From NCBI RefSeq assembly GCF_005519465.1, contig NZ_CP027859.1:124001-188000 (forward strand): a DNA stretch of 64,000 bases. Reading direction: 5' to 3'. Within the stretch, counting starts at the first letter, position 1. Each line of letters starts with the position of its first letter. The notes below the pieces were generated by a model. That model made no database searches, was not told the DNA's origin, and saw only the letters and a program-made list of their open reading frames with translations. Positions 36,843-58,789 of the stretch are shown piece by piece. The DNA is from Streptomyces clavuligerus. GTDB taxonomy: Bacteria; Actinomycetota; Actinomycetes; Streptomycetales; Streptomycetaceae. Both the position numbers and the translations under genes were made by a program.

Positions 36843-38225
36843 TCAGCTTCTTACCAGGTCGAAAGTGTGGGAGGAGTTCTTGTCTATCCATACTCCGCCG
36901 CTGTCATAGGTGTATGTCTTGTTGAGCACCTTCTCAGTGATGACTATTTTCTGGACGCACATGTCCGCAGAGGCGGCGCCACCCGACTGGCGGATCACTG
37001 CCTGGCCGATATCCCCAATGTAGGGGATATCGAGCCAGAATGCATAGGTTCCCCCTTGTTCGAAGTCGTTTTCATCTGGATGGTCAAGGGGCCCTATCTC
37101 CCAATTCTGCCGGACCCCGTTGACTTTGATGTAGACGTCTGCGTCGGTTCCTGCGCCGTTGGTATTGGCCATCGTGATGCTCGCCGTATATCCCGCCCAT
37201 GGCGTTGGTGTGCCGAGTGTCCCGTCTACCGTCATGTTGTAGGCGTCGAGGGTTGTCGCGGTGACGTTCAGGATTCCGTTGACGCCGTAGAGCTCGGAGG
37301 TCACTTGCAGCTTTTCGAAGCTGGACACTCCTGTGGCTGTGATGCCTTTGTCCGCGGTGACGGCGTCGCCGATGTGCAGCGTGCTGTCCTCTCCCAGAAG
37401 TGTGCCCTGGATGTGAGGTTGTTTGATCCAGAGGACTCCATCGCCGACCGGCCCGATCACGCATTGGTCGTTGAACTGCAGGTTGCTGGCGACGGTGATG
37501 GGGTCCTGGTCGGCGCCATGGAGGCTTCCGGAGATCTGGGGGGATTCCAGTACAGCTGACTGCACTGAGAAGGTGCCGGATTCCACTGCCCGGATCTGTT
37601 TCTGGTCCGCCAGGATCAAGTCACTCTGGAAGTTCGCGTCGCCCTGTACCGTCAGCGAGTCCACCACCAGACTTCTGCTGGTCGCGTGGTCCTTGGTCAG
37701 GGCCCGGCTGGTGAGGTACGGCGTGGTCGGCCAGTTGTCGGCCTGAGTGGGCTCTCCGGTGGTGGAGACCTCCTCGATGGAGATCCGGGTGGTGCCCGCT
37801 GTGGAGTTGACCGGGATGTCCGCGAGGCGGAAGGCGACACCGTCCGTGGTGAGGGTGAGGTAGTCACCTGATACCGGGGTCGCCTGGTACCGGACCGTGG
37901 CCGGGGTGTCACCCACGCCCTGTCCGGTACCGGACTGACGGGTGCCTGTGGCCGGAGCCGGGGCGAAGGTCCAGATACCCGCGGGTATGGCCTCGGTGGA
38001 CACGGTCTCGGGGCTCTCGGTGAGATCCCGGGCGGAGGAGCCGACGGAGAGCGACAGGACGATGCTTCTGCAGTGAATCGCCTCGCCGCCACCATTGGAG
38101 ACGATCACATCGATGTCGGCCAGGGCCGGTTCGGAGCTGTCGGAACTCACGTTGAGGGGAGCGGGGTTCGCGCGCACGGCATAGTCCAGCAAGGGCGAAG
38201 GGGGTACGTCGGTCGATACGGTCAT
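36843..38225 (-). CDS. tail-fibre-like protein, long paralogue of a six-gene operon
   Basis: A 460-residue protein without signal peptide. N-terminal region 1-165: a beta-rich domain (LLDYAVRANPAPLNVSSDSS; DIDVIVSNGGGEAIHCRSIV). Residues ~186-333: a run of short strands (VVDSLTVQGDANFQSDLILA; IRAVESGTFSVQSAVLESPQ) like the beta-helical shafts of phage tail fibres. Residues ~345-460: a separate beta domain (YTASITMANTNGAGTDADVY; VLNKTYTYDSGGVWIDKNSS). The ATG follows GGAGTG. G+C is visibly lower in the core than in neighbours. It is the last gene of the operon and shares its N-terminal domain and nearly identical core with the preceding gene. Binding or structural role inferred; fold not proven. 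Confidence 0.75.
   Translation of the reverse strand: MTVSTDVPPSPLLDYAVRANPAPLNVSSDSSEPALADIDVIVSNGGGEAIHCRSIVLSLSVGSSARDLTESPETVSTEAIPAGIWTFAPAPATGTRQSGTGQGVGDTPATVRYQATPVSGDYLTLTTDGVAFRLADIPVNSTAGTTRISIEEVSTTGEPTQADNWPTTPYLTSRALTKDHATSRSLVVDSLTVQGDANFQSDLILADQKQIRAVESGTFSVQSAVLESPQISGSLHGADQDPITVASNLQFNDQCVIGPVGDGVLWIKQPHIQGTLLGEDSTLHIGDAVTADKGITATGVSSFEKLQVTSELYGVNGILNVTATTLDAYNMTVDGTLGTPTPWAGYTASITMANTNGAGTDADVYIKVNGVRQNWEIGPLDHPDENDFEQGGTYAFWLDIPYIGDIGQAVIRQSGGAASADMCVQKIVITEKVLNKTYTYDSGGVWIDKNSSHTFDLVRS
37236..37670 (-). repeat. 435-bp near-identical core shared with 38366-38800 (copy 1)
   Basis: Matches 38366-38800 at an offset of exactly 1130 bp with only scattered substitutions, most of them in two short patches around 37365 and 37500-37530. 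It covers the beta-strand shaft of the protein. Identity at synonymous sites implies recent duplication or gene conversion, while the flanks have diverged. Confidence 0.95.
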
Positions 38226-38320
38226 GATGCCACTCCGGTGGTCGGAAAATCCTGCGCGAAGGCCCGGATCTTTGGAGAACGGGAAGAGGGGGAGCGCGGT
38301 TCAACCTGTTCGCGGACGGC

Positions 38321-39364
38321 TCATCTGAGTTCTCCGTTGACCGTGAGCGTCTCGTCCACTGTTACGTTGTAGGCGTCGAGGGTTGTCGCGGTGACGTTCA
38401 GGATTCCGTTGACGCCGTAGAGCTCGGAGGTCACTTGCAGCTTTTCGAAGCTGGACACTCCTGTGGCTGTGATGCCTTTGTCCGCCGTGATGGCGTCGCC
38501 GATGTCCAGCGTGCTGTCCTCTCCCAGAAGTGTGCCCTGGATGTGAGGTTGTTTGATCCAGAGGACTCCATCGCCGACCGGCCCGATCACGCATTGGTCG
38601 TTGAACTGCAGGTTGCTGGCGACGGTGATAGATTCTTGGCCGGCGCCGGCCAGGGGTCCGGAGATCTGGGGGGATTCCAGTACGGCTGACTGCACTGAGA
38701 AGGTGCCGGATTCCACTGCCCGGATCTGTTTCTGGTCCGCCAGGATCAAGTCACTCTGGAAGTTCGCGTCGCCCTGTACCGTCAGCGAGTCCACCACCAG
38801 GCTCTTCGCCGTCACCGCGGGTGCTTTGGTGAGCGGGTGGTTCATGGTCCGTGGTGTCGTGGGCCAGCTCGCCGAGGTGTCGGGGTCGTCGGTGGTGGCT
38901 GTCTCCTGGATGGAGATCCGGGTGGTGCCCACCTGGGTGTTGACGGGGATGCCGGTCAGATGGAAGGTGACGCTGTCGGCGACCAGGCTGGTGTAGCCGG
39001 TGTCCGAGACCGGTGTGGCCCGGTAGTCGGCCGTGGCCGGGCCGGAGGCAGTGAAGGCGGCGTAGTCGTCGGTGGGGACGGCGTAGAGCACTTCGTCCTG
39101 GACCTGGACGAAGGCCCACTGGTCGGCGGGGCTGACGGTGATCGCGATCGCGTCGGGGTCCTCGGTGATGTCCTGGGCGAGGGTGCCGACCTTGATGGTG
39201 AAGACGAACTGTTTGCAGTACACGGTCTCTTCGCGGCCGTTGGAGACGATGATGTCGATATCGGCCGTATTCGGCGCGTCGCCACTGGTGCTGACTGTCA
39301 GGGGCTGCGGCGTGGTGACCACCGCGTAGTCCAGCAGCGGCAGGTCGGGTACGGGTGAGGTCAT
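38321..39364 (-). CDS. tail-fibre-like protein, short paralogue of a six-gene operon
   Basis: A 347-residue paralogue of the next gene. The N-terminal domain (LLDYAVVTTPQPLTVSTSGD; DIDIIVSNGREETVYCKQFV) is moderately similar; the core (VVDSLTVQGDANFQSDLILA through VTATTLDAYNVTVDETL) is almost identical; it then stops at TVNGELR without the C-terminal beta domain of its partner. Either it is a shaft-only form or it lost its tip. The ATG at 39364 follows GGAGTC. A 169-base gap separates it from the 1195-residue gene and 95 bases lead to its paralogue, so all are likely cotranscribed. Confidence 0.75.
   Translation of the reverse strand: MTSPVPDLPLLDYAVVTTPQPLTVSTSGDAPNTADIDIIVSNGREETVYCKQFVFTIKVGTLAQDITEDPDAIAITVSPADQWAFVQVQDEVLYAVPTDDYAAFTASGPATADYRATPVSDTGYTSLVADSVTFHLTGIPVNTQVGTTRISIQETATTDDPDTSASWPTTPRTMNHPLTKAPAVTAKSLVVDSLTVQGDANFQSDLILADQKQIRAVESGTFSVQSAVLESPQISGPLAGAGQESITVASNLQFNDQCVIGPVGDGVLWIKQPHIQGTLLGEDSTLDIGDAITADKGITATGVSSFEKLQVTSELYGVNGILNVTATTLDAYNVTVDETLTVNGELR
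38366..38800 (-). repeat. 435-bp near-identical core shared with 37236-37670 (copy 2)
   Basis: Direct repeat of copy 1 with an 1130-bp period. Recombination between the copies would fuse the N-terminal domain of the short paralogue to the C-terminal domain of the long one and delete one gene. Confidence 0.95.
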
Positions 39365-39533
39365 GAGATTTGACTCCTGCGGATGGGTTTCCCCGTGGAT
39401 GTGGTGCCCGGGGTCCGCCCGGGGCGGGTGCCGGCCGCCGGGAGGTCCGCCCGGCGGGCGCGGGGGCCGGATGCCGGGGGGGTCGGCCGCTGTGCGCCCC
39501 GGTGGGGACTGCTGCAGGGGGCTGCGGTGGATG

Positions 39534-42500
39534 TCAGCGGGGGGCCTGGTCGGGTGGCGGGGTGAGGGGTTGGTCCAGTTGGAGCATTCCGGCACGCAGG
39601 ACGGGCGGGGTCCCGGGGAGGTGGGCCGTGGTGTCGGCCGGTGCGGTGGGGTAGGTGGTCCAGGTGAGCGGGGGGTTCTGGGCCGGGGCGGTGGTGGGCT
39701 GGGCCCAGCTCCAGTTCTGGGTCTTGTCGATGGGCCGGGGCAGGACGACTGCGCCGGTCTGCGGGCCGGCGTCGCTGGGCGGCTGTTCCGGGGCGAGCAG
39801 CGGGTCGGCGCGGAAGGGGATGTTCATGCGCTGGAGGGCGGCCTGGATGAGGTCGGCGGGGATCTGGAAGGCGGTGGTGGGGAGGATGCCGGTGGTGACG
39901 TGGACGGGGTTGCGGGGGTCTGTGAGGAGGGTGAGGTTGAGGCCGGTGGTGGTGGGGTCGGCCGTGAGGGTGGGCCAGTTGCCGGTGATGGGGGTGAGAT
40001 AGCCGGTGGGGGCGGTGAGGTAGTCGGTGAACAGGGTGGTGTAGGTGTCGTCGCGGTAGTAGCCGACGAGTCCGTCGGTTGGCCGGTCGTCGCGGCCGAG
40101 ACGGATGTTCCACGGGTAGGTGGTGAATTCGGGGGTGGCGGGGGTGAAGGCGTACTGCCAGCCGGGGTCGGTGACCGGTGGGCCGTCGAGTTCTATGGTG
40201 AGACGGGAGCGCAGCAGGGCGAGGGGGCGTCCGATGAGTGTGGCCAGCCGTTGGTCGTCGGTGCCGCCGGTGGGATTGATGACGGCGAGCGCGGTGTCGA
40301 TCACTGTGCGCAGGTCGGTGAAGGCGGCGGGGTCGGGGCCGGTGAGCGGGGCGAGCACGTTGTGGAGGTGGGGGTGGTCGGTGGCGAGGCTGTCGAGGGT
40401 GGGGTAGGGGGTGTAGGGCAGGGGGGTCCAGGTGACTCCGGCGGAGGTGGTGAGGAGTTCGCCGAGTGCGTCGCCGGCGGGGCTGTAGATCATGAGGGCG
40501 CGGTCGGCGTAGTTGGAGATCACCCAGCCGATGAGGAGGGTGTCGTCGCCGGTGGGTTCGGCGGCCGTGGCACGGGCGGTGTGGGCGGTGCCGGTGCCGG
40601 TGTCGGCGGTGAGGCGGGCGGGCTGGAGGAGCCGGGGCGAGAGCTGGACCATCAGGGCGGGCGGGACCCCGTCGACGGCTGAGGCGGTGGCGGTGAGGTC
40701 CGGGGCGGTGGTGAAGGTGGCGCCGCTGGTGGCGGGGGTGAGGTCGAGGACGCGGCCGAAGCGGTCGATGATCTGGAGGCCGGTGAGGGTGAACTGGCCG
40801 GAGCGGAGCTGCTGGAACCCTGAGGGCGACCAGCCGGTGAAGGGTTCGGGGAGCGGGCCGGGGTTGAGGCCGTAGTGGTAGCCCTGGCCGATGAGGGGGG
40901 CGAGGGCGGGCGGCGGGTTGGTGCCGGGCTGGGGGACGCGGAGGGCGAACTGTTCGGTGAGGCCGTCCATGGTCTGGGAGAGGAGGTCGCCCTCGGTTGC
41001 CTGGGCCGCGAGCCGGGTGAGGGCGGTTGCGGTGTCGGGGTCGGTGGTGCGGTCGGCGTAGGCGGTGAGCTGGTGGGCGAGGGTGGAGGTGAGCTGGGGG
41101 GTGAGGATGCTGCGGCCGAGGTAGGTGCGGGGGGCAGTGGCGGCGCCGGTGCCGTTCCACTGGTAGTCGGTCCCGTTGAAGGTCCAGTCGGGGGTGGTGC
41201 CGGTGGTGAAGGGGATGGCGTAGTAGTCGGCCTTCCACATCAGATACAGGGGTGTCCAGGGCTGGGACCAGACAGTGGTGCCGTACGGGGGCGGGGCGCC
41301 GTCGGCGGAGTCGTAGAGGGCGTTGTCGGCGGGGTCCGCCATGGCGGTGGCGAGGTCGTCGATGGTGGCGGAGTCGGTCCAGCCCTGGGTGGCGGCGATC
41401 GAGGTGGCGTTGAAGCCGTCGAGGAAGAAGAACTCGTCGACAAGGGAGGGGAGTTCGGGGGGAAGGCCGCTGGAGCTGTTGGGGATGGCGGGGATCACCG
41501 CGGCGACATCGGCGGCGGTGATGGACTGTTCCCGGAAGGTGATGCCGGTGATCAGCTGGTCGGGGAAGCGGCAGGGCAGGGTGGTGGTGCCGGTCAGGGG
41601 TGCCGGGGGCTGGGTGCCCTGGGCGCCGCGGGTGAGGATGACGGGGTCGCCGCTCTGGTAGGAGGCCGTGCGCCCGGCGCGGGAGAGGGTGAGCTGCATC
41701 TGGTCGAGGCCGTAGTGCCGGTTGGCGGTGGTGATGGCGGCGGCGAGTTCTTCGGGGGTGTCACCGGTGGGGATGCTCGCCTTGAGGGTGCTGGCCGTGT
41801 CGGTCTGGGCGGAGACCTGCTGGGCGAGGGAGCCGTCGGCGGTGGGGTCGAGCTGGTAGCGGAACTGTTCGCGCCGGTACTGCGGCGGGAGCAGCGGCAG
41901 GGTGCTCATCCACCAGGTGCAGTACAGCCGCCACTGGAGGGCTGACAGGGTGGTGACGGCGAGGTCGTACTGGGCCTGGGCGGTGTTGAGTTCGCTCAGG
42001 GCCTCGGTGATGACGGCCGGGTCGGGGGCCACGGGTGGTGGTGGGGTGGTGGCCGGATCGTGGTTGACGGTCCACAGATTGCCGGACCAGGACTGGCTGA
42101 ACGCGGCTTCGTGGAGGGTGTCGGTGACCTCGCCGTGGCCGCCGGGGGTGTCGAGGGCCGGCAGGAGGCCGCGCAGCAGGGCCCGTACGGCGAGGGGGTC
42201 GGCGGGGGGCGGGGCGAGGGCGGCGAGGGCGTCGTCGCTGCTGGTGCCGATGGCGATGTCGACCGCGTCCGGGGCGGGTCTGGGTGAGGCGGGGGCGGGT
42301 CCGGTGCTGTTCCAGGCCAGGTCGAGGACCATGCCCTGGTAGAGGGAGCGGGTGGTGGTGCCGGTGGTGGTGCCGGTGGTGGTGGTGCTCCAGCCGAGTG
42401 AGGCGAGGATTTCGGCGAAGGAGGTGCCGGGGGTGACGGCGAGGATGTCCTGGGCGGGGTCTGAGTACCAGCCGGTGACGAGATAGCTGAGGGTTTCCTG

Positions 42501-43121
42501 TTCCTGGAGGCCGTCGAGGGGGTCGTGGAGGGAGAAGACGTTCTCGTTGTAGGGCTGGTAGACGGAGAAGGTGTCAATGCCGGGACCGAGGACGGTCAGA
42601 TACAGGGGGCCGCGTCCGGTGGGTTCGCTCCAGGAGCCGTCGGCGAGGTTCACCTTGCGTCCGGCGCGGGTGACGGTCATGGCCGCGCCGGGTTCGGCGG
42701 GGGGTTGCAGAAAGGGGCTGGTGCCGTTCTGACGGTCGAGGTAGTCGCTGTCGACGACCCAGGCGTCGGCGCTGCGGCCGGTGGCGGGGCCGCTGTAGCG
42801 GACGACGAGCCAGCGGTTGGGGACGAGGGGCAGGGCGGTGGTTCCGGTGAGGGTGTCGTAGGTGCCGTGCCGCAGGGCCTGCGGCATGCGCCACTGGAGG
42901 TAGGCGCCGTTGTTGCCGGTGGTGGTGGCGAAGTCGGGATCGGTGCCGGAGAACGGGCGCGGTTCGGGGGACACATTGAGGCCGAGGGCGTAGAAGTTCA
43001 GCTTCCAGCGCGCGAACTCGTGCGGTGCGGTGCGTACGGCGTCGTTGATGACGAGGGCGTCCACCTCGACGGGGACGACGAGGGCGGGGTCGGAGTCGGC
43101 GGCGGGGCTGCTGGCGGCCAT
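39534..43121 (-). CDS. uncharacterised 1195-residue protein of the six-gene operon
   Basis: No signal peptide, membrane segment or family recognised. The N-terminus reads ALVVPVEVDALVINDAVRTA and HEFARWKLNFYALGLNVSPE. The middle has WYSDPAQDILAVTPGTSFAE, a Thr/Gly repeat (TTTTGTTTGTTT), a helical segment (ITEALSELNTAQAQYDLAVT; ALQWRLYCTWWMSTLPLL), and many Trp/Tyr/Pro-rich beta-like stretches to the end (LTPPPDQAPR). PLYLMWKADYYAIPF and GYHYGLNPGPLPEPF suggest a large multidomain structural protein. The ATG follows AAGGAAG, eight bases after the stop of the upstream gene, so translation is probably coupled. A scaffold or assembly part is a guess from size and context. Confidence 0.75.
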   Translation of the reverse strand: MAASSPAADSDPALVVPVEVDALVINDAVRTAPHEFARWKLNFYALGLNVSPEPRPFSGTDPDFATTTGNNGAYLQWRMPQALRHGTYDTLTGTTALPLVPNRWLVVRYSGPATGRSADAWVVDSDYLDRQNGTSPFLQPPAEPGAAMTVTRAGRKVNLADGSWSEPTGRGPLYLTVLGPGIDTFSVYQPYNENVFSLHDPLDGLQEQETLSYLVTGWYSDPAQDILAVTPGTSFAEILASLGWSTTTTGTTTGTTTRSLYQGMVLDLAWNSTGPAPASPRPAPDAVDIAIGTSSDDALAALAPPPADPLAVRALLRGLLPALDTPGGHGEVTDTLHEAAFSQSWSGNLWTVNHDPATTPPPPVAPDPAVITEALSELNTAQAQYDLAVTTLSALQWRLYCTWWMSTLPLLPPQYRREQFRYQLDPTADGSLAQQVSAQTDTASTLKASIPTGDTPEELAAAITTANRHYGLDQMQLTLSRAGRTASYQSGDPVILTRGAQGTQPPAPLTGTTTLPCRFPDQLITGITFREQSITAADVAAVIPAIPNSSSGLPPELPSLVDEFFFLDGFNATSIAATQGWTDSATIDDLATAMADPADNALYDSADGAPPPYGTTVWSQPWTPLYLMWKADYYAIPFTTGTTPDWTFNGTDYQWNGTGAATAPRTYLGRSILTPQLTSTLAHQLTAYADRTTDPDTATALTRLAAQATEGDLLSQTMDGLTEQFALRVPQPGTNPPPALAPLIGQGYHYGLNPGPLPEPFTGWSPSGFQQLRSGQFTLTGLQIIDRFGRVLDLTPATSGATFTTAPDLTATASAVDGVPPALMVQLSPRLLQPARLTADTGTGTAHTARATAAEPTGDDTLLIGWVISNYADRALMIYSPAGDALGELLTTSAGVTWTPLPYTPYPTLDSLATDHPHLHNVLAPLTGPDPAAFTDLRTVIDTALAVINPTGGTDDQRLATLIGRPLALLRSRLTIELDGPPVTDPGWQYAFTPATPEFTTYPWNIRLGRDDRPTDGLVGYYRDDTYTTLFTDYLTAPTGYLTPITGNWPTLTADPTTTGLNLTLLTDPRNPVHVTTGILPTTAFQIPADLIQAALQRMNIPFRADPLLAPEQPPSDAGPQTGAVVLPRPIDKTQNWSWAQPTTAPAQNPPLTWTTYPTAPADTTAHLPGTPPVLRAGMLQLDQPLTPPPDQAPR

Positions 43122-43129
43122 GGGCTTCC

Positions 43130-45403
43130 TTACGCGGAGGCGGGCGGCCGGAAGGACTGCCGCAGGGGGGTTTGGACCATTTCGATGGCGAAGCCCGCCG
43201 GGGTGAGGCCCTCGGCGGGCAGATGACCGTCCAGTCCCTGGGTCAGGGCGGGAAGCAGCGGGGTGCCGCAGGTGGTGTCGGTCAGGTTCAGGACGCGGGC
43301 GGTGTTCCCCTCGGGCGCGGGCCGCAGATAGGCGGTGAAGCCGGGTCCGCCGGACAGGCCGGTGCCGAGTGCCTGGCCGATGTCGCCGGTCAGGGCCCGC
43401 AGTTCGATGAGGCCGTCCCCGTCGGTACCTTCCTCGATGCCGAAGGCGAGGCCGTGGTAGGGCTCGGCGAGGGTGACGGTGTCGGGGACGCCGTCGAAGA
43501 CGCAGAACAGGATCTGGGGGTCCAGCAGCGCGCGCCGCAGCAGGGGCAGGGGGCTGCCCGCGGCGGTGGCCCGGACGTCGAGGTCGGGCCAGCCGGAGAT
43601 CAGGGCTGAGCGGATCAGCAGGCCGCCGCGGAGCGGGGGGACGGGGACGGTGGTGGCGATGACGGCGGAGAGTTCCTGGTCGAGGCTGTGGGCGGTGGCG
43701 ATGCTGAGGGCTCCGTCGCTCAGGCCGATGATCCAGGTGGGGTCGACATAGCAGAAGCGGAGGGTTTCGGGCGGGAGGAGGTCGGGGTGGCCGATCAGGG
43801 AGGTGAAGGGGACGGTGGCCAGGGTGTGGAGGCGGGTGAGCCAGTCGGGTACGCCGGGTTCGGCGGCGGCGAGTTCGGCGGCGAGCGCTTCGCGGACCGC
43901 CGGGACGCCGGTGAGGGCGTGGAGCGTGGCGGCGAGTGCCGCGCCGGCCGGGTGCCCCGGAGCGCTTCCCGGTGGGCTCGTCAGCGGGGGCGGCGTGTCC
44001 GGGGCGGGCGTGTCCGGGGCGGGCGGGCGGACGAGGGAGCGGAGCCAGGCTTCTCCTCCGCCGGAGGCGGCGAGGGTGTCGAAGGCGTGCCGGGCGGGCT
44101 GGGACTGGAGCAGGGTGGTGAGGCAGGCCGGGGTGAGCCGGTCGGCGGTCAGGCCGGTCGCGGCCATGCGCTGGGCCAGGGTGGTGAGCCAGGTGCGGGC
44201 GGTGCGGCGCAGCCGGGTCAGGGCGGTGCGGAATTCGGTGTCGGCGAGTGCGGTGAGGCGGCCGAGGGTGAAGGCGGCGGCGACGCCGGTGTCGTAGACG
44301 CCCCACTGTTCGTCGTAGACGAGGGCTCGGTCGGCGGACGGCAGGGGTGTGCCGGTCAGGTCAGCGGGCCAGGGCGCGGGCGGGACGGGGGTCAGCGGGC
44401 CGCGGTACCAGGCGAAGGTGGTCTCCCCGGTGCCCGTGGTGTAAGGCAGGGGGACATGGCCGGCGTTGAGGCGGTCGGTCGCGGCGCTGGTCGCGTCGTC
44501 GGGGGCGGGTGGTGCCGTGGTGGGGGTCAGCCTCAGCAGCAGGGCGTCCGGGTCGTCGAGGCCGGGGGCGACGAGTGCGGCCATGAGGTCGGCGAAGCTC
44601 TCCCCGGGGCCGGTCTGTGAGGTGAAGGACCAGGTCCACAGGGATACCGCGCGGACATCGCGTCCGGGCGGGGTGCCGCCGGGGAGAGCGGCGGTGAGCC
44701 CCTCCACGGAGATCAGGTGGACGGTGCAGCGTCCCGTCCCGGACGGGGGGAGGCGGTTGCCGACCACCACCGCGTAGGAGCCCGCCGCCGTCTCCTCGCC
44801 CCGGGGGGCCGCGGGAGCGGGGGCGATCTCGCGGGCGTGGGCGAGGGCGGGGAGTTCGTCGGCGCGGGGCAGGACGCGGGTGAAGGTCTGCGCCGGGATG
44901 CGGATCGTGGCGCAGGAGCTCTGGAGGATGTCCGCAGGGACGGTGGCGGTGTCGATGGCGGGGACCTGGACATCGCCTTCGGCTCCGGCCAGCAGGTACT
45001 GGACCGTCATGGTGTCGACCGCGCCGCGGGCCAGCGGGTCGTTGGGGAGTTCGTGCTCGGCGAAGACGGCGACGGCCAGCCACGGCATTCCCGCCGCCCC
45101 TGATCCGCTGGGCCGCGCCCAGGGCAGGAATGGGACGGTGAGGGTGATGTGGGGCAGTACGGAGGTGTAGTCGCCGGTGCTGCCGTCCGCGGGGAACACG
45201 GCGCGGACATCGGCGGGGTCGAGGGCGAACTGCGGGGCCCGTACCTCGATGTCCTGGGCGGCGGTGAGCGCGTCGCTGTCGTTGACGCCGGACAGGACCT
45301 GGCTGACGCCGATGCTGTAGGTGCCCGGGGCCAGGTCCGGCACCTGGTTGTCGTGGAAGGCGATGGTCAGGCTGTCTGCGGTGTCACCGGTCGGATCGGG
45401 CAT
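43130..45403 (-). CDS. uncharacterised 757-residue protein of the six-gene operon
   Basis: No recognised family or export signal. The N-terminal ~130 residues look like a jelly-roll or Ig-like domain (SLTIAFHDNQVPDLAPGTYS; HITLTVPFLPWARPSGSGAA). The middle contains a helical linker with WLTTLAQRMAATGLTADRLT, and the C-terminal third has beta text (GLLIRSALISGWPDLDVRAT; DPQILFCVFDGVPDTVTLAE; GFTAYLRPAPEGNTARVLNL). The ATG follows GGAGGAC by six bases. It begins 67 bases after the DUF6603-type gene stop and ends eight bases before the next start. Likely a partner of the 1195-residue protein. Confidence 0.75.
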   Translation of the reverse strand: MPDPTGDTADSLTIAFHDNQVPDLAPGTYSIGVSQVLSGVNDSDALTAAQDIEVRAPQFALDPADVRAVFPADGSTGDYTSVLPHITLTVPFLPWARPSGSGAAGMPWLAVAVFAEHELPNDPLARGAVDTMTVQYLLAGAEGDVQVPAIDTATVPADILQSSCATIRIPAQTFTRVLPRADELPALAHAREIAPAPAAPRGEETAAGSYAVVVGNRLPPSGTGRCTVHLISVEGLTAALPGGTPPGRDVRAVSLWTWSFTSQTGPGESFADLMAALVAPGLDDPDALLLRLTPTTAPPAPDDATSAATDRLNAGHVPLPYTTGTGETTFAWYRGPLTPVPPAPWPADLTGTPLPSADRALVYDEQWGVYDTGVAAAFTLGRLTALADTEFRTALTRLRRTARTWLTTLAQRMAATGLTADRLTPACLTTLLQSQPARHAFDTLAASGGGEAWLRSLVRPPAPDTPAPDTPPPLTSPPGSAPGHPAGAALAATLHALTGVPAVREALAAELAAAEPGVPDWLTRLHTLATVPFTSLIGHPDLLPPETLRFCYVDPTWIIGLSDGALSIATAHSLDQELSAVIATTVPVPPLRGGLLIRSALISGWPDLDVRATAAGSPLPLLRRALLDPQILFCVFDGVPDTVTLAEPYHGLAFGIEEGTDGDGLIELRALTGDIGQALGTGLSGGPGFTAYLRPAPEGNTARVLNLTDTTCGTPLLPALTQGLDGHLPAEGLTPAGFAIEMVQTPLRQSFRPPASA

Positions 45404-45470
45404 GCGGGTGTCCTCCGCGTCGGTCGGGTTGCCTTCCCGGGCCCCCAGGGGCTGGTCGCGAGCGGCAGGG

Positions 45471-48400
45471 TCAGGGGGCCGGCAGGAGCAGGGGGTCGTC
45501 CAGGAGGACGGCCCCGGTCTCGGCCGCATAGGTGTCCAGGGTGCCGTCGGCACCCGGGCCGGGGCTCCGGCCCAGTGCGCCGAGCGCGTCGTAGAGGCTG
45601 GTGCGGGCGGTGACGGCGGTGCCGGCCGCGATCTCGGTGCCGATGAGTGCGGCGGTGCCCGGGGTGTCCACCGGTGAGGGCTCGGGTGCGGGCGCGCCGG
45701 GGGTCAGCGGGCAGGCGGCTTCCGGTTCGAGATCGGTGGCGGCGAGCAGGCTCTCGGCCACCGGGCCGGGAGAGAAGCCCGGTACCGGCGGCGGAACCGT
45801 GATTTCCAGTCCGGTCGTCCGGGCCAGCAGTTGCTGGCCCGGATCGGGGACCTGCGGCGGGCCGGGCGGGCCCCACAGAGCGGCCGGCACGCTCCCGGAG
45901 ACGGCCGACACCTGCCAGGAGGACACGTCCGGGGTCTGTCCCCCGGTCGTGACGGTGACGGTCTGGGTGGAGGCGATGGCACTGAGGCCCATGGGACGCA
46001 CATCGACCGGTTCCCCCGTGGCCGCGGTGGCCCCGCAGAACACCGCCGTCGTCACCGGGGCCGCCGACTGAGTGGTGAAGGTGAAGCCCGCCGGGCTCAC
46101 CCGCCAGGCGCTCACGGTGTCCGCGTCGGCGGGCAGCAGCCCCGCCACCGGCGTGAGTGCCACCGGCGACGGCGGCAGCAGGGCGAGGAACGCGGCCCAG
46201 TCGACAGGGGGCGGCGGAGCGGCCTTCGCCGCGCCGAAGGACACGGTGAACGACAGGAACCACAGATGCACCGTCACTGTTCCGCCGGTCGGCGGGCCGA
46301 ACAGGTGCACCTCCGCCCCCAGCTCGACCTTCAGGGTGGTGTGGATGAACCACCAGTCGATCCGGTACGACACCCCGACGGTGACGCCGACCGCGACATC
46401 GAAGGCGAACGGGGCCCACTGGAGCAGCAGGTCAGCGTGGGCCGTGAACCAGGCGCGCAGCCCGCCGGTGTGGAACACCACATCGAGTGCCCCGCCCGCC
46501 ATGACCGCGCCGGGGGTGAGGGCCGCGTACGCCTTTCCCGACACCGTCACCGTCGAGTCGACGGTCCAGGAGAACCCGACCCGGGGCAGCACCGGATACC
46601 AGGCGGGCACCCGGAACGCCGGATGGTAGCCACCGGCGGTCATCACGAAGTCTCCCGCGTGTCCGCTGCCGTCGAACCACAGGAAGAAGGCGAATCCGCC
46701 GCTGAGCACACAGGCCCGGTCGATCAGGAAGGAGTCGGGGGTCAGATCGGCGCTGATCGCCAGCCGTGCCTGGGACTGGCGGTACACGGCCTCCAGTTGC
46801 AGACCGACCTTCGCGTACGCCTGGTCGACGGCCGCGTTCTGCGGGAACGTGGCCTCTCCGAGGCCCAGCAGCGCCAGGGTGAACTCGTCCCCGAACTCCA
46901 GCAGGACCAGTGCCCGGGAGCGGATCCACTGGAACGAGGTGAAGTCGGCGCCCGCCGCCAGCCAGATCTCACCGGGCCGGGGCGTGATCCAGGGGTCGCT
47001 GCCCTGGATGAGGGAGGTGAGGACGGACAGGGGGGTTCCGCCGGACGTGCTCCACACCTCGGGGTTGAGCAGGGGGAAGTCCGCGACCTCGGTCCGGTCC
47101 GGGACCCGTACGGCTCCGTTCATCCCGAATCCGGCGGCGAACCCGGTCAGGACGAACGGTGCCGGCCCGACCGCCGCCACCGAGGCCCGGGCGAAGACGA
47201 ACAGCAGGGGCGAGCCCGCCACGGGGTGCTCGTACATGCCCACCGCGCGGGCCGAGAAGCGGCGGGTGGACAGGGCCAGCGCGCCGCCGACCGACAGGTC
47301 GTATCCGTCGTCCGGGGTCATGGTCACCAGTGCGCCGCCGATCTCGACCGGCGGGCGGCGGAAGTCGACACCCAGGCCGTCCAGCCGGAACGAGGGCACC
47401 ACCGTGTCGCTGGTCAGCGGGAAGCCGATGCCGAGCCCCTGCACCGCCACGGCCAGCCCGTCGACCCGCAGGACGCCGTCGATCAGCACCCACACGTCCG
47501 GATCGGCGTATCCCAGCCCCAGCCGCTGCACCGAGATCGGTCCGAAACTCCGCTGGATGGGCACCCACAGCACCAGCGGGACCGCTGTCCCTGCCACCGC
47601 GCCCGGGACCGGGTCGGCGGGGGGCTCGGTGTCACCGGTGGTGAACGCGGCCACCATCGCGGGCTGCGGGGTGCCCGCCACGGTGTAGAACACGGACACC
47701 ACCAGCCCGGCGGGCAGTTCCTGAGCGGGGAACAGCGGCCACTGTGAGCCGAACGCACTGATCATCGAGTTGAAGCCGCTGATCTGATCGGCGGTCAGAT
47801 CCTGTGCGGCGGCGACCGTCTGCACTCCGGTGAGGCCCAGATCGGCCGAGTCGGGGATCAGCCCCGCCAGCAGCGGCAGATCCGACAGCCGTACGGAGAC
47901 GGTCGCGTTTATCAGCCCCGCGTACGCGAACGAGCCGTCCGTGCCCCGGGCGGCGGTGAACACGGCCTGCACGCTCTGGGTCGCCCCTGTCACCACCAGC
48001 AGACCCCGCGCGCTGTCATAGGCGCAGCCGATCTGGGTGAGGACCGGGACGAACGCCTCCGGTATCCCGGACAGGTCCAGGCCGAACACCTTCGCCAGGT
48101 CGGCGAAGGACACCCCGGGGTCGGCCTCGGCGGACGCGGTGAAAACCGTCGAGGTGGCATCCTGGGCGAAGGCGACCGTGAAGTTCAGCACGCTCTCCTG
48201 CCCTGTCACCGATGACGTGTACGGCAGGGTGAGCACGCCGGTGAACGAGGGGTCGTAGCCGTCGGCTTCGTTGTGGTCCAGTGCGGCGGTCACGGTGAGC
48301 CCGGCTGTCACTCCGGCCAGCGGGAAGGCTCCGGAGACGGCGAACTCGAAGTGCTCCCCCTCCGAGTCGAAGGCCAGGGCGAGCCCCCGCAGCGTCAGGC

Positions 48401-49712
48401 TCGCCACCGGGGCGGGTACCTGAGCGCTGAAGACATCGGCCAGGACGGTGTCGAAGTCGCTGATCGAGAGCGTGTATCCGGGGATCAGTTCCCCGCTGAA
48501 CTGCCAGCTCTGCCCGGCCGTGTAGAGCGCGGAGAGGCGGACGGCGGCCTTTCCGATCATCCACAGGGTGAGGACGTCGACCTGGTCGGGGGGTGCGTCG
48601 GTGCCCGCGGCCTCGATCTGGACCGCGTTCAGGGAGAACGACGGGATGATCTGCCAGGCGCCGGTCAGGTCGATCTGCATGCCGTAGCCGCGTGTGGGCA
48701 CATCGAGCCAGCACGCCAGCTCCTTGATCTCCAGGTCGGGCAGTCCGGCACCGGCCAGGCCCAGGGCCTCCCAGATCGCCGACAGCCTGATGGTGTCGGC
48801 CAGCCGGATGTCCATGGACTGCACGGAGGCCACCGTGCCGTTCCGGGCGAGCTGCAGACCGGCGTTCCACCGGGCGCCGCCCAGGGTCATGCCCGTCACC
48901 AGCGCGGTGTCCACATCCGTTCCGCGTACGGAGTAGCGGGCGCGGATGTCGTTCAGCTCGAACAGCCCCGGGATCAGGGTGAGGGAGTCCGCAATGCGGA
49001 CCTCGGACCAGGACACCGTGATGCTGCCCGGGGCGGCGGGGGCCAGGGTGTAGGCGAGGTCCGTCAGCGCCAGTGGGAGGACGGGGGTGATCCCGGGGGT
49101 CCCGAAGGCGGATTCGGGCGGTCTGGGAGTGATCTCCGGCAGGTCGCTGGTGTTTGGCAGGGTGATCCCGGGTGCCCCGTCGGCGATCAGCTGCACCCCC
49201 GCCGACACGCCCGCGCTGCCCGGCACCGGGAACCCGCGCAGATACAGCAGGTGGGAGGGGTCCCAACTCACCGCGAGCCAGGCGCCGATGCCCGCGTTGC
49301 CCGTGCCCTCGATGCCGCCCCAGATGGGTTCGATCGACAGGGCGAGGGCCAGGCCGGTGATGTCCGGCTGCCAGTCGTGCAGGAATGTCAGATCCGCTCC
49401 GTCCCAGGCCGCCGGGAGCACCCAGCCCGTCAGCCCGGCGTCGGCGCGGAAGCCGGTGACATCGACGCCGGAGGGGTCGGCGAAGAACTCCACCGTCCCG
49501 GTGCGGGACGCGTCCGCGAAGACGATCGAGCCGGAGAAGGAGAGCGCCGTCGTGTCGATGTCCTGGACGTCGGTGACTGTCAGTGTGCCGCTGCCCAGAT
49601 ATGCGGTGAACAGATCGACAGCGGGCGGAAGGTCCAGTTCCGAAGCGGAGAGGGTGAATTCCCCGCCCGGCGGCGGGAACTTCTCGCGCAGGGCGTCAAC
49701 CGTCAGTGCCAC
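45471..49712 (-). CDS. DUF6603-type giant protein
   Basis: A 1413-residue beta-rich protein without a signal peptide. WVPIQRSFGPISVQRLGLGY and ADPDVWVLIDGVLRVDGLAV, followed by VQGLGIGFPL, are the kind of text found in DUF6603 proteins of actinobacteria, near residues 705-770. Before it come repeated amphipathic beta elements (VTDVQDIDTTALSFSGSIVF; LALALSIEPIWGGIEGTGNA; SLTLRGLALAFDSEGEHFEF). After it come GAGADFTSFQW-like strands and a hydrophobic stretch (LLLQWAPFAFDVAVGVTVGV; YRIDWWFIHTTLKVELGAEV) that could contact membrane. The GTG follows GAGGAG. It starts 28 bases after the metallo-hydrolase stop. Function of the family is unknown; the alternating pattern suggests an elongated beta scaffold. 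Confidence 0.8.
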   Translation of the reverse strand: MALTVDALREKFPPPGGEFTLSASELDLPPAVDLFTAYLGSGTLTVTDVQDIDTTALSFSGSIVFADASRTGTVEFFADPSGVDVTGFRADAGLTGWVLPAAWDGADLTFLHDWQPDITGLALALSIEPIWGGIEGTGNAGIGAWLAVSWDPSHLLYLRGFPVPGSAGVSAGVQLIADGAPGITLPNTSDLPEITPRPPESAFGTPGITPVLPLALTDLAYTLAPAAPGSITVSWSEVRIADSLTLIPGLFELNDIRARYSVRGTDVDTALVTGMTLGGARWNAGLQLARNGTVASVQSMDIRLADTIRLSAIWEALGLAGAGLPDLEIKELACWLDVPTRGYGMQIDLTGAWQIIPSFSLNAVQIEAAGTDAPPDQVDVLTLWMIGKAAVRLSALYTAGQSWQFSGELIPGYTLSISDFDTVLADVFSAQVPAPVASLTLRGLALAFDSEGEHFEFAVSGAFPLAGVTAGLTVTAALDHNEADGYDPSFTGVLTLPYTSSVTGQESVLNFTVAFAQDATSTVFTASAEADPGVSFADLAKVFGLDLSGIPEAFVPVLTQIGCAYDSARGLLVVTGATQSVQAVFTAARGTDGSFAYAGLINATVSVRLSDLPLLAGLIPDSADLGLTGVQTVAAAQDLTADQISGFNSMISAFGSQWPLFPAQELPAGLVVSVFYTVAGTPQPAMVAAFTTGDTEPPADPVPGAVAGTAVPLVLWVPIQRSFGPISVQRLGLGYADPDVWVLIDGVLRVDGLAVAVQGLGIGFPLTSDTVVPSFRLDGLGVDFRRPPVEIGGALVTMTPDDGYDLSVGGALALSTRRFSARAVGMYEHPVAGSPLLFVFARASVAAVGPAPFVLTGFAAGFGMNGAVRVPDRTEVADFPLLNPEVWSTSGGTPLSVLTSLIQGSDPWITPRPGEIWLAAGADFTSFQWIRSRALVLLEFGDEFTLALLGLGEATFPQNAAVDQAYAKVGLQLEAVYRQSQARLAISADLTPDSFLIDRACVLSGGFAFFLWFDGSGHAGDFVMTAGGYHPAFRVPAWYPVLPRVGFSWTVDSTVTVSGKAYAALTPGAVMAGGALDVVFHTGGLRAWFTAHADLLLQWAPFAFDVAVGVTVGVSYRIDWWFIHTTLKVELGAEVHLFGPPTGGTVTVHLWFLSFTVSFGAAKAAPPPPVDWAAFLALLPPSPVALTPVAGLLPADADTVSAWRVSPAGFTFTTQSAAPVTTAVFCGATAATGEPVDVRPMGLSAIASTQTVTVTTGGQTPDVSSWQVSAVSGSVPAALWGPPGPPQVPDPGQQLLARTTGLEITVPPPVPGFSPGPVAESLLAATDLEPEAACPLTPGAPAPEPSPVDTPGTAALIGTEIAAGTAVTARTSLYDALGALGRSPGPGADGTLDTYAAETGAVLLDDPLLLPAP

Positions 49713-49740
49713 AGCCGTACACTCCTCGCGTCCGGGTGGA

Positions 49741-50922
49741 TCAGGGGTTGCCGGTCTGGGTCAGGGTGTATTTCCCCGTGCCGTCGAAGCTGAGCACCAC
49801 ATGGCTTCCCGGCCAGGCGGGCGGTGTCTTCTTGGGCACCGGGGCCGAACCCGGGTCCCTGAACGCCGTCGTATAGAGGTCGCCCGAGTAACCGGGGACG
49901 ATCTCGTACAGGTTGTAGTCGGCGGCGAGAGGTGCCTCGGAGCTGCCCGCGGGGCCTGACTTCTTCGGACGGTCGTACTGCATGTAGTCATGGGCCGGCG
50001 CCTGACCCAAAGTGACCGACGCCGTGCTCAGAATGGAGTCCAGCGTCGTTTTGTCGGGAAGGCCGTGCGAGGAGTTCGTCGCGCTGACGATGAGCCCGGT
50101 GGGACCGATGGTCTTGATCCAGTCCGAGCCGGAGGAAGTGGGACTGCCGTGATGGCCGACCTTGAGCCATTTCCCGGCGGCGGCGGTGGGGAACATCCAG
50201 GTGTTGCCCTGCGCTCGCGCCAGGATCTCCCGTTCCGTCTCCGTGGTCGCGTCACCGGTCAGATAGACGCAGTGGTTCAGTGAGGGGTTCGCCGGGTCGG
50301 TCTGGAGCAGCAGGACAAGACTGCGGCCGTTCCTGTCGAGCGCGGTCGGGCCCTTCAACGTGCCATTGGCCTTCCGCTTGTTCGAGGACTGCACGGGGTT
50401 GCCACGCTCGTTGACACCGAGCAGGGAGACGGTGGCCGTGCCCACCGTGATGGTGTTCTGCCGTGTCGTACCCGGCAGGAACGTGGCGCCGGTCCCGGCC
50501 CGTACCCGCTGGTCGAGGAAGGCTCCGGTGTTTGGGCCGTATTCGAAGCTCTCGCCGCCGTACCAGACCTGGTTGATCTGGATGGTGGGGACGATCGGCG
50601 GGGAATCGACGAAGGCTTCCTCCTCCAGGACCTCGGTGGGAGGCCTGAGGGCGAGCAGCTTGTACAGCTGGTTGTAGTGATCGACATGCCCATGGGTGAG
50701 AAAGAGATGGTCCAGCACATAGGGGCCGCCGGTACCACCGCTCGCCTTGTCGAGATACTCCTGAAAGACCTTCAGGACCTCCGGATATGTTTCCGCCGAG
50801 CCTTTTGTCGATCCGTAGTCGATGAGGATCAGTTTTCTGGTGGCCGGGCTCGCCTGATCGTCGAGGTAGACCAGGATTCCGTCACCCTGGCCGACATTCA
50901 TGAAGACAACATCGACGAGCAC
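49741..50922 (-). CDS. ComEC/Rec2-like metallo-beta-lactamase hydrolase
   Basis: A 393-residue MBL-fold protein. VDVVFMNVGQGDGILVYL is the family start; LILIDYGST the first metal-adjacent strand; LFLTHGHVDHYNQLYKLL gives HxHxDH at residues 77-82; VYLTGDATTETER the GD motif; WLKVGHHGSPTSSGSDWI the HHGS motif typical of the ComEC C-terminal nuclease domain; and LIVSATNSSHGLPDKTTL the last His. All metal ligands are present. No membrane domain is attached. First gene of the six-gene minus-strand operon; the GTG start follows GGAGGGG. Likely a nuclease or phosphoesterase. Confidence 0.88.
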   Translation of the reverse strand: MLVDVVFMNVGQGDGILVYLDDQASPATRKLILIDYGSTKGSAETYPEVLKVFQEYLDKASGGTGGPYVLDHLFLTHGHVDHYNQLYKLLALRPPTEVLEEEAFVDSPPIVPTIQINQVWYGGESFEYGPNTGAFLDQRVRAGTGATFLPGTTRQNTITVGTATVSLLGVNERGNPVQSSNKRKANGTLKGPTALDRNGRSLVLLLQTDPANPSLNHCVYLTGDATTETEREILARAQGNTWMFPTAAAGKWLKVGHHGSPTSSGSDWIKTIGPTGLIVSATNSSHGLPDKTTLDSILSTASVTLGQAPAHDYMQYDRPKKSGPAGSSEAPLAADYNLYEIVPGYSGDLYTTAFRDPGSAPVPKKTPPAWPGSHVVLSFDGTGKYTLTQTGNP

Positions 50923-52076: not shown

Positions 52077-53196
52077 TTGATCAGAAACCCAAGGGGTTCT
52101 CGCCCAAGGCGTAGCGGACGTGGGGACCGGCGAAGTAGCCACGGACGATGTGGGGCTGACGCTGGCGCCTGTGGAAGAATCTGCGGGTTTCGGCGGCGAG
52201 TTCGGTCTGGTTCCTGGCCCTGTGGGTGTGGGGCAGGCTGCGTTTGAGGTCGGCGTTGACCAGCTCGTCCGGGTTCAGTTCGGGTGAGTACGAGGGCAGG
52301 AAGTGCAGCTCGATCTCGTTCTTGTGGCCGTCGAGCCAGGCCCGGACGGTCTTCGAGCGGTGGGCCGGGTGCCGGTCGACGACCAGGTGGACCTTCCGCA
52401 GGTGGACCTTCCGGTCGAAGTGCCCGACGATCCGGGCAAGGAAGCGGCACATGACCTTCGCGTCGAACGTCTCGGTGAAGACCATGAAGTGCATCCGGCC
52501 ACGAGTGCTGATCGCGGACATCGCGTTCACGGAGAAGCGGTTCCCGGTGCGGAGGACGACGGGAGTCGCGCCTTTGGCGCCCCAGGTGCGGCCGGTGACC
52601 TGGTCCGATCGGACCCCGACCCGGTCGCCGAAGAGAACCTCGGCGTTCTCCGCCTTCGCCTCGGCCCGAATCGCCGGCCAGGTCTCCTCGTGCCAGACAC
52701 GGACCGCTTCCACGTCCTGCTCGACCGCCCGTTTGTCCGGACGCTGGAAGGTCGGCCCCCAACGCTTGAGGTACTTGCCCACCCCGGGCTCGGTGAAGCG
52801 GATCCGGTACAGCTTGAAGACCAGCTCGCCTATCTGCCCCGTGTCCACAACTGACCGGAAAGTCCCAGCCCGGAGGGGATGTGATCGAGGACGGCCTGCC
52901 GGACCGCGGCCTGTTCGGCCTCCGACAGGACCTGATGCCCACCCGCACGGCGGCCTCGCGGGCGCGACAGCAATGCGTCCCGTCCGCCTGTCTGCCACTT
53001 GCCCCACCAGTTGTCCACAGCCCTGACCGACACCTTGAACAGGGCGGCAACCTCCATCCGGTCCCGCCCCTCCACCAGCGCCGACACCGCCAGCAACCGC
53101 ACAGCCTCCTGCGCATCCGGCGACCAGGCCCGCGCGTCCCCCACCAGATCACTCACACCCCATCAACGAGCCTGAACTCAAAGCATTTCGGATCAA
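52077..53196 (-). mobile_element. IS630-family insertion sequence, 1120 bp, TA target duplication
   Basis: The ends are inverted: TTGATCAGAAACCC at 52077-52090 and, on the other strand, TTGATCCGAAATGC from 53196. TA dinucleotides flank both ends (52075-52076 and 53197-53198), as expected for IS630/Tc1-mariner transposition. One transposase reading, split into two frames, fills the interior. Insertion was into DNA upstream of the methyltransferase. Confidence 0.8.
52081..53156 (-). CDS. IS630-family transposase, two overlapping frames
   Basis: The first frame (53156-52830) encodes the helix-turn-helix part: MSDLVGDARAWSPDAQEAVR, ALFKVSVRAVDNWWGKWQTG, ending GLSGQLWTRGR. The second (to 52081) continues GQIGELVFKLYRIRFTEPGV and contains the DDE part: NAEVLFGDRVGVRSD, KVHLVVDRHPAHRSKTV and FLPSYSPELNPDELVNADLK. 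The switch occurs near 52830-52845 at a CGGGGC run. IS630 relatives sometimes use programmed frameshifting, so the element may still be active; a simple mutation is equally possible. The usual DN-xxxH pattern is DRHPAH here. Confidence 0.8.
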
Positions 53197-55993: not shown

Positions 55994-56326
55994 GGAGCGA
56001 AGACCATCCGTGGGCCGGGGTCGCCGACGGGCCCACACCAGCGCACAGGACCCGGGATGTGTATTCGGTGGGGTTCTTCGGAGCTCTCTACCGGCGGGCC
56101 CCGGTCCCGTGGCGGCCGTCAGGCGTGCGCGCGGTCGTCGGCGACCCGGCCTGGTTGGGCCTCGACCAGGCTGCCCGCGGCGATCGCGAAGTACATGCCG
56201 TGCCACCACTGCTCCATGATCAGTGCCACGACCGGCTCGGTGAAGGAGCGTTCGAAGTCACTTGCGTGACCGGTGCGCATGAGCTGGGCGAAGTGGTGGC
56301 AGTAGGTGCTGTCCATGTATCCGAGG
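55994..56326 (-). repeat. Inverted duplicate copy B (contains the 3' end of the 56.1 kb gene)
   Basis: Complete version of the sequence repeated in reverse orientation at 36346-36580. It includes the last ~70 codons of the gene ending at 56119 and ~125 bp of 3' flank. About 230 bp match copy A with very few differences. The pair encloses about 19.4 kb. Confidence 0.9.
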
Positions 56327-57990: not shown

Positions 57991-58789
57991 ACGCCCGGTC
58001 CGGTGCGGTGGGTAAAGGGCATCGGGGTGGGGTGTGCTGACACGAAGCCTCCCAGCGCCGGCACCAGTGGTGGCCGGCGCCATCCGATCACGTGGCGTCG
58101 ACGAGGGACTGCCGGACCAACCGGGTGCCGGGCCGACGGATAGACGGGAGCTCGCCCATCCCGGCACGTCAGGCAACGCGGCGTGCTTCACGCTAGGTGT
58201 CCCCGGCCGCGCGCGACAATCCCTCACAGGAGTGAGGAAGGTCGGCGCTTCTCGACCTGCAGCCACACCGATGCCCGGGTGACCTGCGAGAGCAGTGGAT
58301 GTGAACCTTCGGACCGTTCCTGACCTGCCGTAATTGCCCGACACACCACGAACGCGCCCGTTGCGCGCCGTCCCGGAGCCGGGGGCTCGTGACGGACCCC
58401 GGCGGGGCGTACTGGCACACCGCCGCCCGTCCAGGTGATTCCGTTGACCGGACGTGCGATGCCCCGGCCCGGCGGGTCGCGGCCCACCGTGTGGGTGGTG
58501 CCCCGCGTGTTCGCCCTGCCCACCTCCGCGCGGACCGGCCGGGAGCGTGACAAGGACGGCCCCGCCGGCGGTGATCGGGCCGGGCATGGCGGCAAGGCCC
58601 GTCGTAGACGTCCCGCAGCACGGCCGGGGCCCGCCGCCGCGAGTGGCCGCCACGCACGCCACGGCAGTGTCCTCGTGCCGGCCGGTCACCCGCCCCGCCA
58701 GGACGACTTCGACGGCGCCGCCCTCACCGACTGGACCCAGTTCCTGGACACTGCCGACGGCATCCGATCCGCCCGCGTCCGCGCCGGCG
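57991..58789. other. No gene supported
   Basis: Several open frames caused by GC bias. On the plus strand about 58690-58800 the text DDFDGAALTDWTQFLDTADG and RAGAPQLTGTRRYVA looks coding-like but has no recognisable domain or stop context and adjoins the ISL3 relic. Might include the promoter of the 56.1-kb gene. Confidence 0.4.

Follow-up and report, generated by a model that had tools for sequence, protein, structure and literature searches.

A DUF6603 operon of the Streptomyces clavuligerus megaplasmid pSCL4 with a conserved core and apparently exchangeable enzyme and fibre ends

The locus under study is a minus-strand operon of six genes on the megaplasmid pSCL4 of Streptomyces clavuligerus (C2:~160.8-174.9 kb; 36843-50922 of the window, the 64,000-nucleotide stretch of DNA that was analyzed). 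The genes are numbered G1 to G6 in operon order (Table 1) and encode a metallo-beta-lactamase (MBL)-fold hydrolase, a DUF6603 protein, two large core proteins and two fibre-like paralogues. Sequence comparison with related loci indicated that the operon is modular, an exchangeable enzyme being combined with a conserved carrier. Within MBL operons, the first ~500 residues of G2 were found to vary with the enzyme as one cassette, and the fibre tip at the other end appears exchangeable on a conserved head. The operon, with its core DUF6603-G3-G4, belongs to a widespread multi-protein system that is apparently undescribed. The reading favored here, to which a probability of about 0.5 is assigned, is of a payload-carrying protein complex that is modular and non-contractile.

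To compare the operon across bacteria, a G4 profile scan was run on one genome per species. It returned 259 relatives, of which the best 80 were kept, and these were combined with five plasmid records and the window to give 86 loci; the 80 public loci therefore lean towards close kin. Genes of the loci were called by a codon-score heuristic. G2, G3 and G4 were contiguous and on one strand in 81/86 loci; four of the exceptions (L038, L082, L087 and L088) were cut by a contig end, and L008 (Paenibacillus sonchi) showed no G2. G4 was followed by a match to the G5-family profile, with at most one gene between, in 77/86 loci. Of the nine others, L036, L038, L041, L043, L060 and L079 lie near a contig end, and L003, L008 and L081 do not show G5. 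Most of the best 80 come from filamentous actinomycetes, and the set also spans Paenibacillus (Bacillota) and metagenome-assembled genomes of SAR324 and Chlorobiaceae (Chlorobiota). As the order recurs in distant phyla, it is not due to chance, which bears out the conserved synteny that an earlier note on this DNA, made from the sequence alone, had named as support for its proposal. Clustering of the flanks of the other loci, in which no sheath-gene search was made, gave no constant extra partner gene. In L003, from Paenibacillus polymyxa p-YT9A, the DUF6603-G3-G4 operon lies ~9 kb from a small gene for a GH-E nuclease and from a gene that is annotated as phage baseplate assembly protein V.

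Closer to the organism, 100 relatives (own genome included) were searched, with at most seven G4 candidates scored per genome. DUF6603 was present in 16 and G4 in 12, two of the latter by very weak matches only. DUF6603 was found in each of the 10 genomes whose G4 match was strong, so that G4 implies DUF6603 and not the reverse. A second DUF6603-G3-G4-G5 copy is present on the S. clavuligerus chromosome (L110, C1:152000-171900). A further gene after that copy, cut by the end of the stretch, starts like hemopexin/propeller proteins.

The slot upstream of G2 was occupied by an MBL gene in 12/86 loci, not all of the 86 extending as far as this position; the MBL-led arrangement claimed in the earlier note thus stands for the window and not as an invariable leader of such operons. 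A tight upstream gene was defined as lying on the same strand, at least 200 aa long and at most 65 bases from G2. It was judged in 75 loci, after 11/86 had been left out of the length comparison because G2 was absent, split or at a contig edge. Such a gene was found in 22/75. The slot held an MBL (12), an EEP-like protein (3), an M91-like HExxH protein (L080, peptidase match below the Pfam cut-off), a DUF4135 protein (L085, 9e-19), hemopexin/propeller proteins (L056, L059) or proteins with no clear assignment (L007, L076, L081). The EEP-like labels derive from a weak Pfam match in L009 (0.0038), 48% identity to the L009 protein in L075 and the author's motif reading in L017. M91-like genes were placed less tightly in L021, L036, L061 and L070 (the one in L070 lacking HExxH), and subtilases occur near DUF6603 genes. 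In L021, L036 and L061, two DUF6603 open reading frames (ORFs) flank the gene of an M91-like HELIH protein.

A tight upstream gene went with a long G2 (≥1340 aa) in 20/22 loci vs. 14/53 without one (Fisher 2.8e-7, ignoring kinship). The 1340 aa limit was chosen after seeing the data, and a Mann-Whitney test without it gave 1e-5, likewise ignoring kinship. On a FastTree tree of G4 with long branches (window row 0.95) and enzyme labels set by the author, the MBL label required 10 changes for 12 rows, at least 9 of them by well-supported branches, the branch counts being approximate. Upon shuffling of the labels, the mean was 11.5 changes and 47/500 shuffles were as low as 10, so the MBL is at most weakly clustered on the tree. 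On these counts, the slot seems to have changed its occupant many times. The nuclease-like effector proposed in the earlier note is consistent with these results: the enzyme stands in an effector-like position, which unrelated proteins occupy in related operons. Proteins of one family (230-251 aa), with CxxC pairs in the one read, are encoded divergently from the DUF6603 gene in L010, L011, L016, L024, L037, L045 and L071. No Pfam match was found in the three members scanned, and the G2 N-terminal region in these loci is shorter (280-300 residues).

In the window G2, the core profile begins at residue 525, leaving residues 1-524 as the variable region. Five pairs of an MBL operon and an operon with another upstream gene were compared, and the DNA was alignable only from 0.8-2.4 kb inside G2: from +1519 in L048/L043 (92.7% over 9.9 kb), +2407/+2034 in L022/L015 (90%), +1535/+782 in L019/L024 (85%), +2204/+1481 in L064/L071 (87%) and +1496/+794 in L013/L016 (75-81%). 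The non-MBL partner carried a subtilase 140 bases away (L043), a Cas3-like helicase 469 bases away (L015) or a divergent gene (L016, L024, L071). In pairs of the same MBL lineage (L018/L019, L012/L013), the alignment started before the MBL gene and ran through G2. Where distant MBL lineages were joined to near-identical cores (L018/L022 and L019/L022), it began only at ~+2000 in G2. There were 65 pairs whose G4 identity was 72% or higher; in 15 of them both members became homologous only >600 bases into G2, and 14 of these 15 came from one six-locus clade.

The proteins varied in the same manner. L086 and L048 shared 66% identity between their MBLs and 57% between their G2 N-termini, against 33-36% for the G2 core, G3 and G4; L022 and L018 were 28% identical in the MBL and 26% in the G2 N-terminus, but 78-84% elsewhere. 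Across the 12 MBL operons (66 pairs), enzyme similarity correlated with that of the G2 N-terminus (rho 0.69, 1/5000 permutations as high) vs. rho -0.16 for the G2 core and -0.03 for G4. The pairwise comparisons (protein, DNA breakpoints and correlations) share loci, and the pairs are not independent. For two related EEP-like proteins, from Nonomuraea and Paenibacillus, the G2 N-termini grouped only together, and their G4s were not sisters. Most N-terminal regions of long G2s, those with an MBL and with some other upstream genes, fell in one loose similarity cluster of 31, and are thus mostly diverged forms of one domain.

At the 3' end, G5 and G6 are paralogues (66-68% identical), in agreement with the two tail-fibre-like paralogues described earlier. 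The PLAT domain at the end of G6 (PF01477, 8e-16; PDB match to 11R-lipoxygenase 3vf1, 5.1e-5), which the earlier note did not mention, is a tip domain; of the two paralogues, only G6 has one that is recognised. In 30-codon blocks, stalk DNA of the two genes was 87-100% identical and head DNA 53-76%, the stalk having been copied recently. Among fibre proteins of the related loci, 61 pairs had both tips longer than 30 residues. In these, heads (first 250 residues) were a median 79% identical and tips (after residue 310) 32%; identity was below 35% for the tips in 39/61 and for the heads in 0/61, and the tips reached 60% or more in 7/61. In 30/65 pairs of the G4 set above, DNA homology ended 700-1000 bases into G5 in both members. 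Pfam domains in 53 scanned fibre proteins were bactofilin (4), F5/8C (3), PLAT (1), haemagglutinin repeats (1), PLD (1), DUF5649 (1) and LRR (1). The fibre-like ends anticipated in the earlier note accordingly recur as fibre proteins with exchangeable ends.

The individual proteins were scanned against Pfam, PHROGs, NCBIfam and PADLOC (E ≤ 1). The complete set of metal motifs reported earlier was located in G1: HGHVDH at residues 77-82 (H77, D81, H82), GD with D224, and HHGS at 257-260. Matches were to Lactamase_B (8.6e-5), PADLOC LmuA (2.3e-12, best stretch 219-301), RTasMBL (1e-8), Avs1a (1.9e-6), ComEC_Rec2 (7.4e-10; 37.6 bits, below the curated cut-off of 190) and, weakly, a PHROG named tail protein (5.8e-6); NCBIfam scores were below curated cut-offs. 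The ComEC membrane part was not seen, no hydrophobic 19-residue segment exceeding the limit in 12/12 MBL proteins. G2 is a clear member of PF20248 (E 2e-140, 469 bits vs. a curated cut-off of 27), as the earlier assignment to DUF6603 had it. A model of the domain, made from the homologue in L035 (pTM 0.51), predicted ~20 long antiparallel strands in a porin-like succession, with Foldseek matches to LptD (3.7e-4), ApoB100 (1.9e-3) and porins; by sequence, no match of DUF6603 to porins, LptD or ApoB100 was obtained.

Neither G3 nor G4 matched any family in the four libraries, and they have 33 and 203 homologues, respectively. The AlphaFold2 model of G4 (pLDDT 86, pTM 0.84) had no Foldseek match at E ≤ 0.001 in PDB or BFVD, and thus did not bring the tail, baseplate or toxin-complex folds that had been sought. 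Signal peptides were judged by a simple hydropathy rule, not SignalP. The limit was exceeded by none of the G1 (0/12), G2 (0/88), G3 (0/88) or G5-family (0/102) proteins, for which the earlier claim of no signal peptide held. It was exceeded by 32/87 G4-family proteins; there the stretch in question is conserved and forms strands of the fold in the model, and is for that reason not read as a signal. By this rule the core proteins have no obvious signal peptide, and no clear classical export was seen.

The ORFs of the window were re-derived from the sequence. The six minus-strand genes with their sizes and the gaps of 28, 67, 8, 169 and 95 bases from G1 to G6 were recovered as first described. 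Window DNA was 100% identical to two S. clavuligerus pSCL4 records. A consensus scan of the operon found no sigma-70-type promoter, and terminator-like sites scanned at the operon were not above those of shuffled sequence. A DDE_3/HTH_33 transposase gene (window 52081-53007, minus strand) lies ~1.2 kb upstream of the MBL gene and may bear on operon mobility. Further along, at 56119-59334 (minus strand), is an ORF of 1071 aa with coding-like codon bias and no Pfam match.

Table 1. Features of the pSCL4 operon in window coordinates
Feature	Position	Strand	Description
G1	49741..50922	-	393 aa ComEC/LmuA-like MBL-fold hydrolase; proposed exchangeable payload enzyme
G2	45471..49712	-	1413 aa DUF6603 protein; first core gene in 81/86 loci
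G2 residues 1-524	48141..49712	-	Variable N-terminal region, co-varies with upstream enzyme; proposed payload adaptor
G2 residues 719-1192	46137..47558	-	DUF6603 domain; proposed porin-like amphipathic beta-sheet
G3	43130..45403	-	757 aa core protein; no known family
G4	39534..43121	-	1195 aa core protein; no known family, no significant Foldseek match
G5	38321..39364	-	347 aa fibre-like protein: head and stalk, no recognised tip domain
G5 stalk, residues 190-340	38345..38797	-	Matches G6 stalk in DNA
G6	36843..38225	-	460 aa fibre-like paralogue: head, stalk and PLAT tip
G6 stalk, residues 187-337	37215..37667	-	Counterpart of G5 stalk
PLAT/LH2 domain, G6 residues 346-454	36864..37190	-	PF01477

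DUF6603 genes with no nearby G4 match (L111-L115, L117) formed a second type of operon, in which they adjoin an 'FLPWxRxG'-type protein of 850-1210 aa. Where the stretch extends far enough (L111, L112, L113 and L117), it also encodes a protein of 970-2000 aa with no known family, which is unrelated to G4. G3 and the FLPW protein share a related region of ~200 residues (hhalign probability 97; E 4.7e-11, single comparison). A WD40 propeller gene lies directly upstream of DUF6603 in L111. In L112 a subtilase-like gene precedes DUF6603 and a Kelch gene follows it, and the start of the upstream gene in L117 recalls PhoD phosphatases (these single-gene assignments for L112 and L117 are the author's reading, since no member is named for them in the Pfam tally). 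In L116, the weakest DUF6603 match, neither an FLPW-type nor a giant protein was seen. L118 carries an MBL directly before DUF6603 and G3, with a G4 relative upstream.

Polymorphic toxin systems and Tc toxin complexes carry a variable enzymatic part on a conserved carrier, with separate receptor-binding parts. The present operon differs in that the putative payload is a separate upstream gene and not a C-terminal tip, and G1-G6 had no Pfam or NCBIfam match to Tc families; a genome search with PF18276 was uninformative, as no match was found anywhere, controls included. Lamassu systems have an SMC-like LmuB partner. G1 resembles Lamassu LmuA, Avs1a and ComEC in its catalytic motifs, but PADLOC matched G1 only and none of G2-G6, so that no LmuB-type partner was found, and G1 differs from ComEC/Rec2 in falling below the curated score and lacking the membrane part. 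G2 differs from porins, LptD and ApoB100 in having no signal peptide by hydropathy, no sequence match and low TM-scores, and its family has no described function. DUF6603 or PF20248 was named in no open-access PubMed Central article (subscription papers and preprints were outside the search), and no published description of such an operon was found there, in line with the earlier statement that no system of this composition is described. The modularity of the operon is described here as new.

Extracellular contractile injection systems (eCIS) are, in an extract of the published account, associated with toxins, fitted with tail fibres and released by lysis, and their toxin genes are placed towards the 3' end (PMC8213781). 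The operon is eCIS-like in encoding a multi-protein assembly with variable enzymes and fibres, and differs in its core proteins and in the enzyme gene standing at the 5' end, as far as that extract locates eCIS toxins. By its genes, the operon is not an eCIS: the contractile sheath family PF04984 is absent from it and occurs in the genome only at C2:1325501-1325935 and C1:6648635-6651027, and the gp19-type tube family PF06841 is likewise absent and confined to C2:1319329-1325026 and C1:6647820-6650201. A derived contractile injection cluster, the interpretation closest to the earlier suggestion of a contractile-injection-like structure, could draw on the fibre-like proteins, the weak match of the MBL to a PHROG tail protein and a weak GP11 baseplate-wedge match in one of the 53 fibre homologues (0.0036). 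However, G2-G6 of the window matched no tail or baseplate family in the four libraries, G4 had no significant viral fold match and the sheath and tube genes are far from the operon. This explanation is disfavored and highly improbable.

A conserved middle flanked by exchangeable parts, the enzyme with the G2 N-terminus at one end and the binding tip at the other, makes up a payload-carrier layout, and this exchange at both ends makes lipid storage, a coat or intracellular defence harder to reconcile. A lipid-binding or storage/compartment complex, in which DUF6603 would be an ApoB- or LptD-like sheet coating or carrying lipid and the upstream enzymes its clients, is consistent with the Foldseek matches to LptD and ApoB100, the lipoxygenases among the PDB relatives of PLAT, the lack of obvious signal peptides and the PLD domain in one of 53 fibre proteins. 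Exchangeable fibre tips would be unexpected for a storage body, as would M91-like peptidases in the slot and subtilases near DUF6603, and we consider it unlikely. About as doubtful is a surface or developmental structure of the producer, such as a fibre of the hyphal or spore coat that carries enzymes and ends in adhesive tips. The fibre-like G5 and G6 with their binding domains, and the predominance of filamentous actinomycetes among the best 80 relatives, would suit it; no clear export signals were seen, and because DUF6603 occurs in a minority of the relatives and also in Paenibacillus, SAR324 and Chlorobiaceae, it is not a conserved developmental part. For an intracellular anti-phage or conflict system with the MBL nuclease as effector, the resemblance of G1 to LmuA, RTasMBL and Avs1a and the exchangeability of the effector can be cited, and the defence complex of the earlier note is to that extent retained in G1. 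Its partners are not: PADLOC matched none of G2-G6, none of the four libraries gave an ATPase or sensor match for G1-G6, and exchangeable fibre tips have no evident intracellular role, which makes this explanation improbable.

Several results weigh against the payload-carrying complex. A tight upstream gene was lacking in 53/75 judged loci, most short-G2 loci among them, and some enzyme labels rest on weak Pfam matches or the author's motif reading. Enzyme similarity also correlated with G3 (rho 0.45, 132/5000), which a simple two-module picture does not explain. Breakpoint pairs were drawn from about four G4-tree clades, and thus reflect few independent events. At the fibre end, homology reached the end of G5 in 13/65 pairs and 22 fitted neither class (for example, the match entered a second G5 gene), and most of the 53 scanned fibre tips had no recognised domain. 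TM-scores of the DUF6603 model against porins were at most ~0.3 in the rows shown; given these and the pTM of 0.51, a closed barrel is no more than a possibility, and a lipid-carrying sheet fits the model too, in view of the ApoB100 match.

Under the favored reading of a payload-carrying complex, the MBL hydrolase would be the payload, probably a nuclease or phosphodiesterase, and would dock on the first ~520 residues of G2. The DUF6603 core of that protein may form a large amphipathic beta-sheet in contact with a membrane or inserted in one, G3 and G4 would build the body of the complex, and the G5/G6 fibres would bind a target via exchangeable tips, here the PLAT domain. Release without a signal peptide could occur, for instance, by lysis. 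Docking, assembly, release, target binding, payload transfer and toxicity are all inferred steps. A more specific version is put forward tentatively, as possible and no better than that: an undescribed non-contractile delivery machine of Gram-positive and Gram-negative bacteria, in which a signal-less porin-like sheet protein would be released in a complex, insert in foreign membranes and pass a separately encoded, exchangeable enzyme docked on its N-terminus, the exchangeable fibre tips choosing the target. Taken together, the earlier interpretation is supported in part: the conserved system, the effector slot, the fibres and the lack of clear export stand, and contractile injection is not supported.

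If the delivery interpretation fails, there would still be a widespread DUF6603-G3-G4 core, a second DUF6603 operon type with a G3-like partner and a co-varying enzyme/N-terminus pair. If it is correct, actinomycetes and several other phyla would possess a modular system for delivering or targeting proteins that has no sequence relationship to the families searched and is made up of the family-less G3 and G4 and the uncharacterised Pfam domain DUF6603. The modularity itself points to what to test, namely the payload-binding part, the target-binding part and the payload enzymes used.

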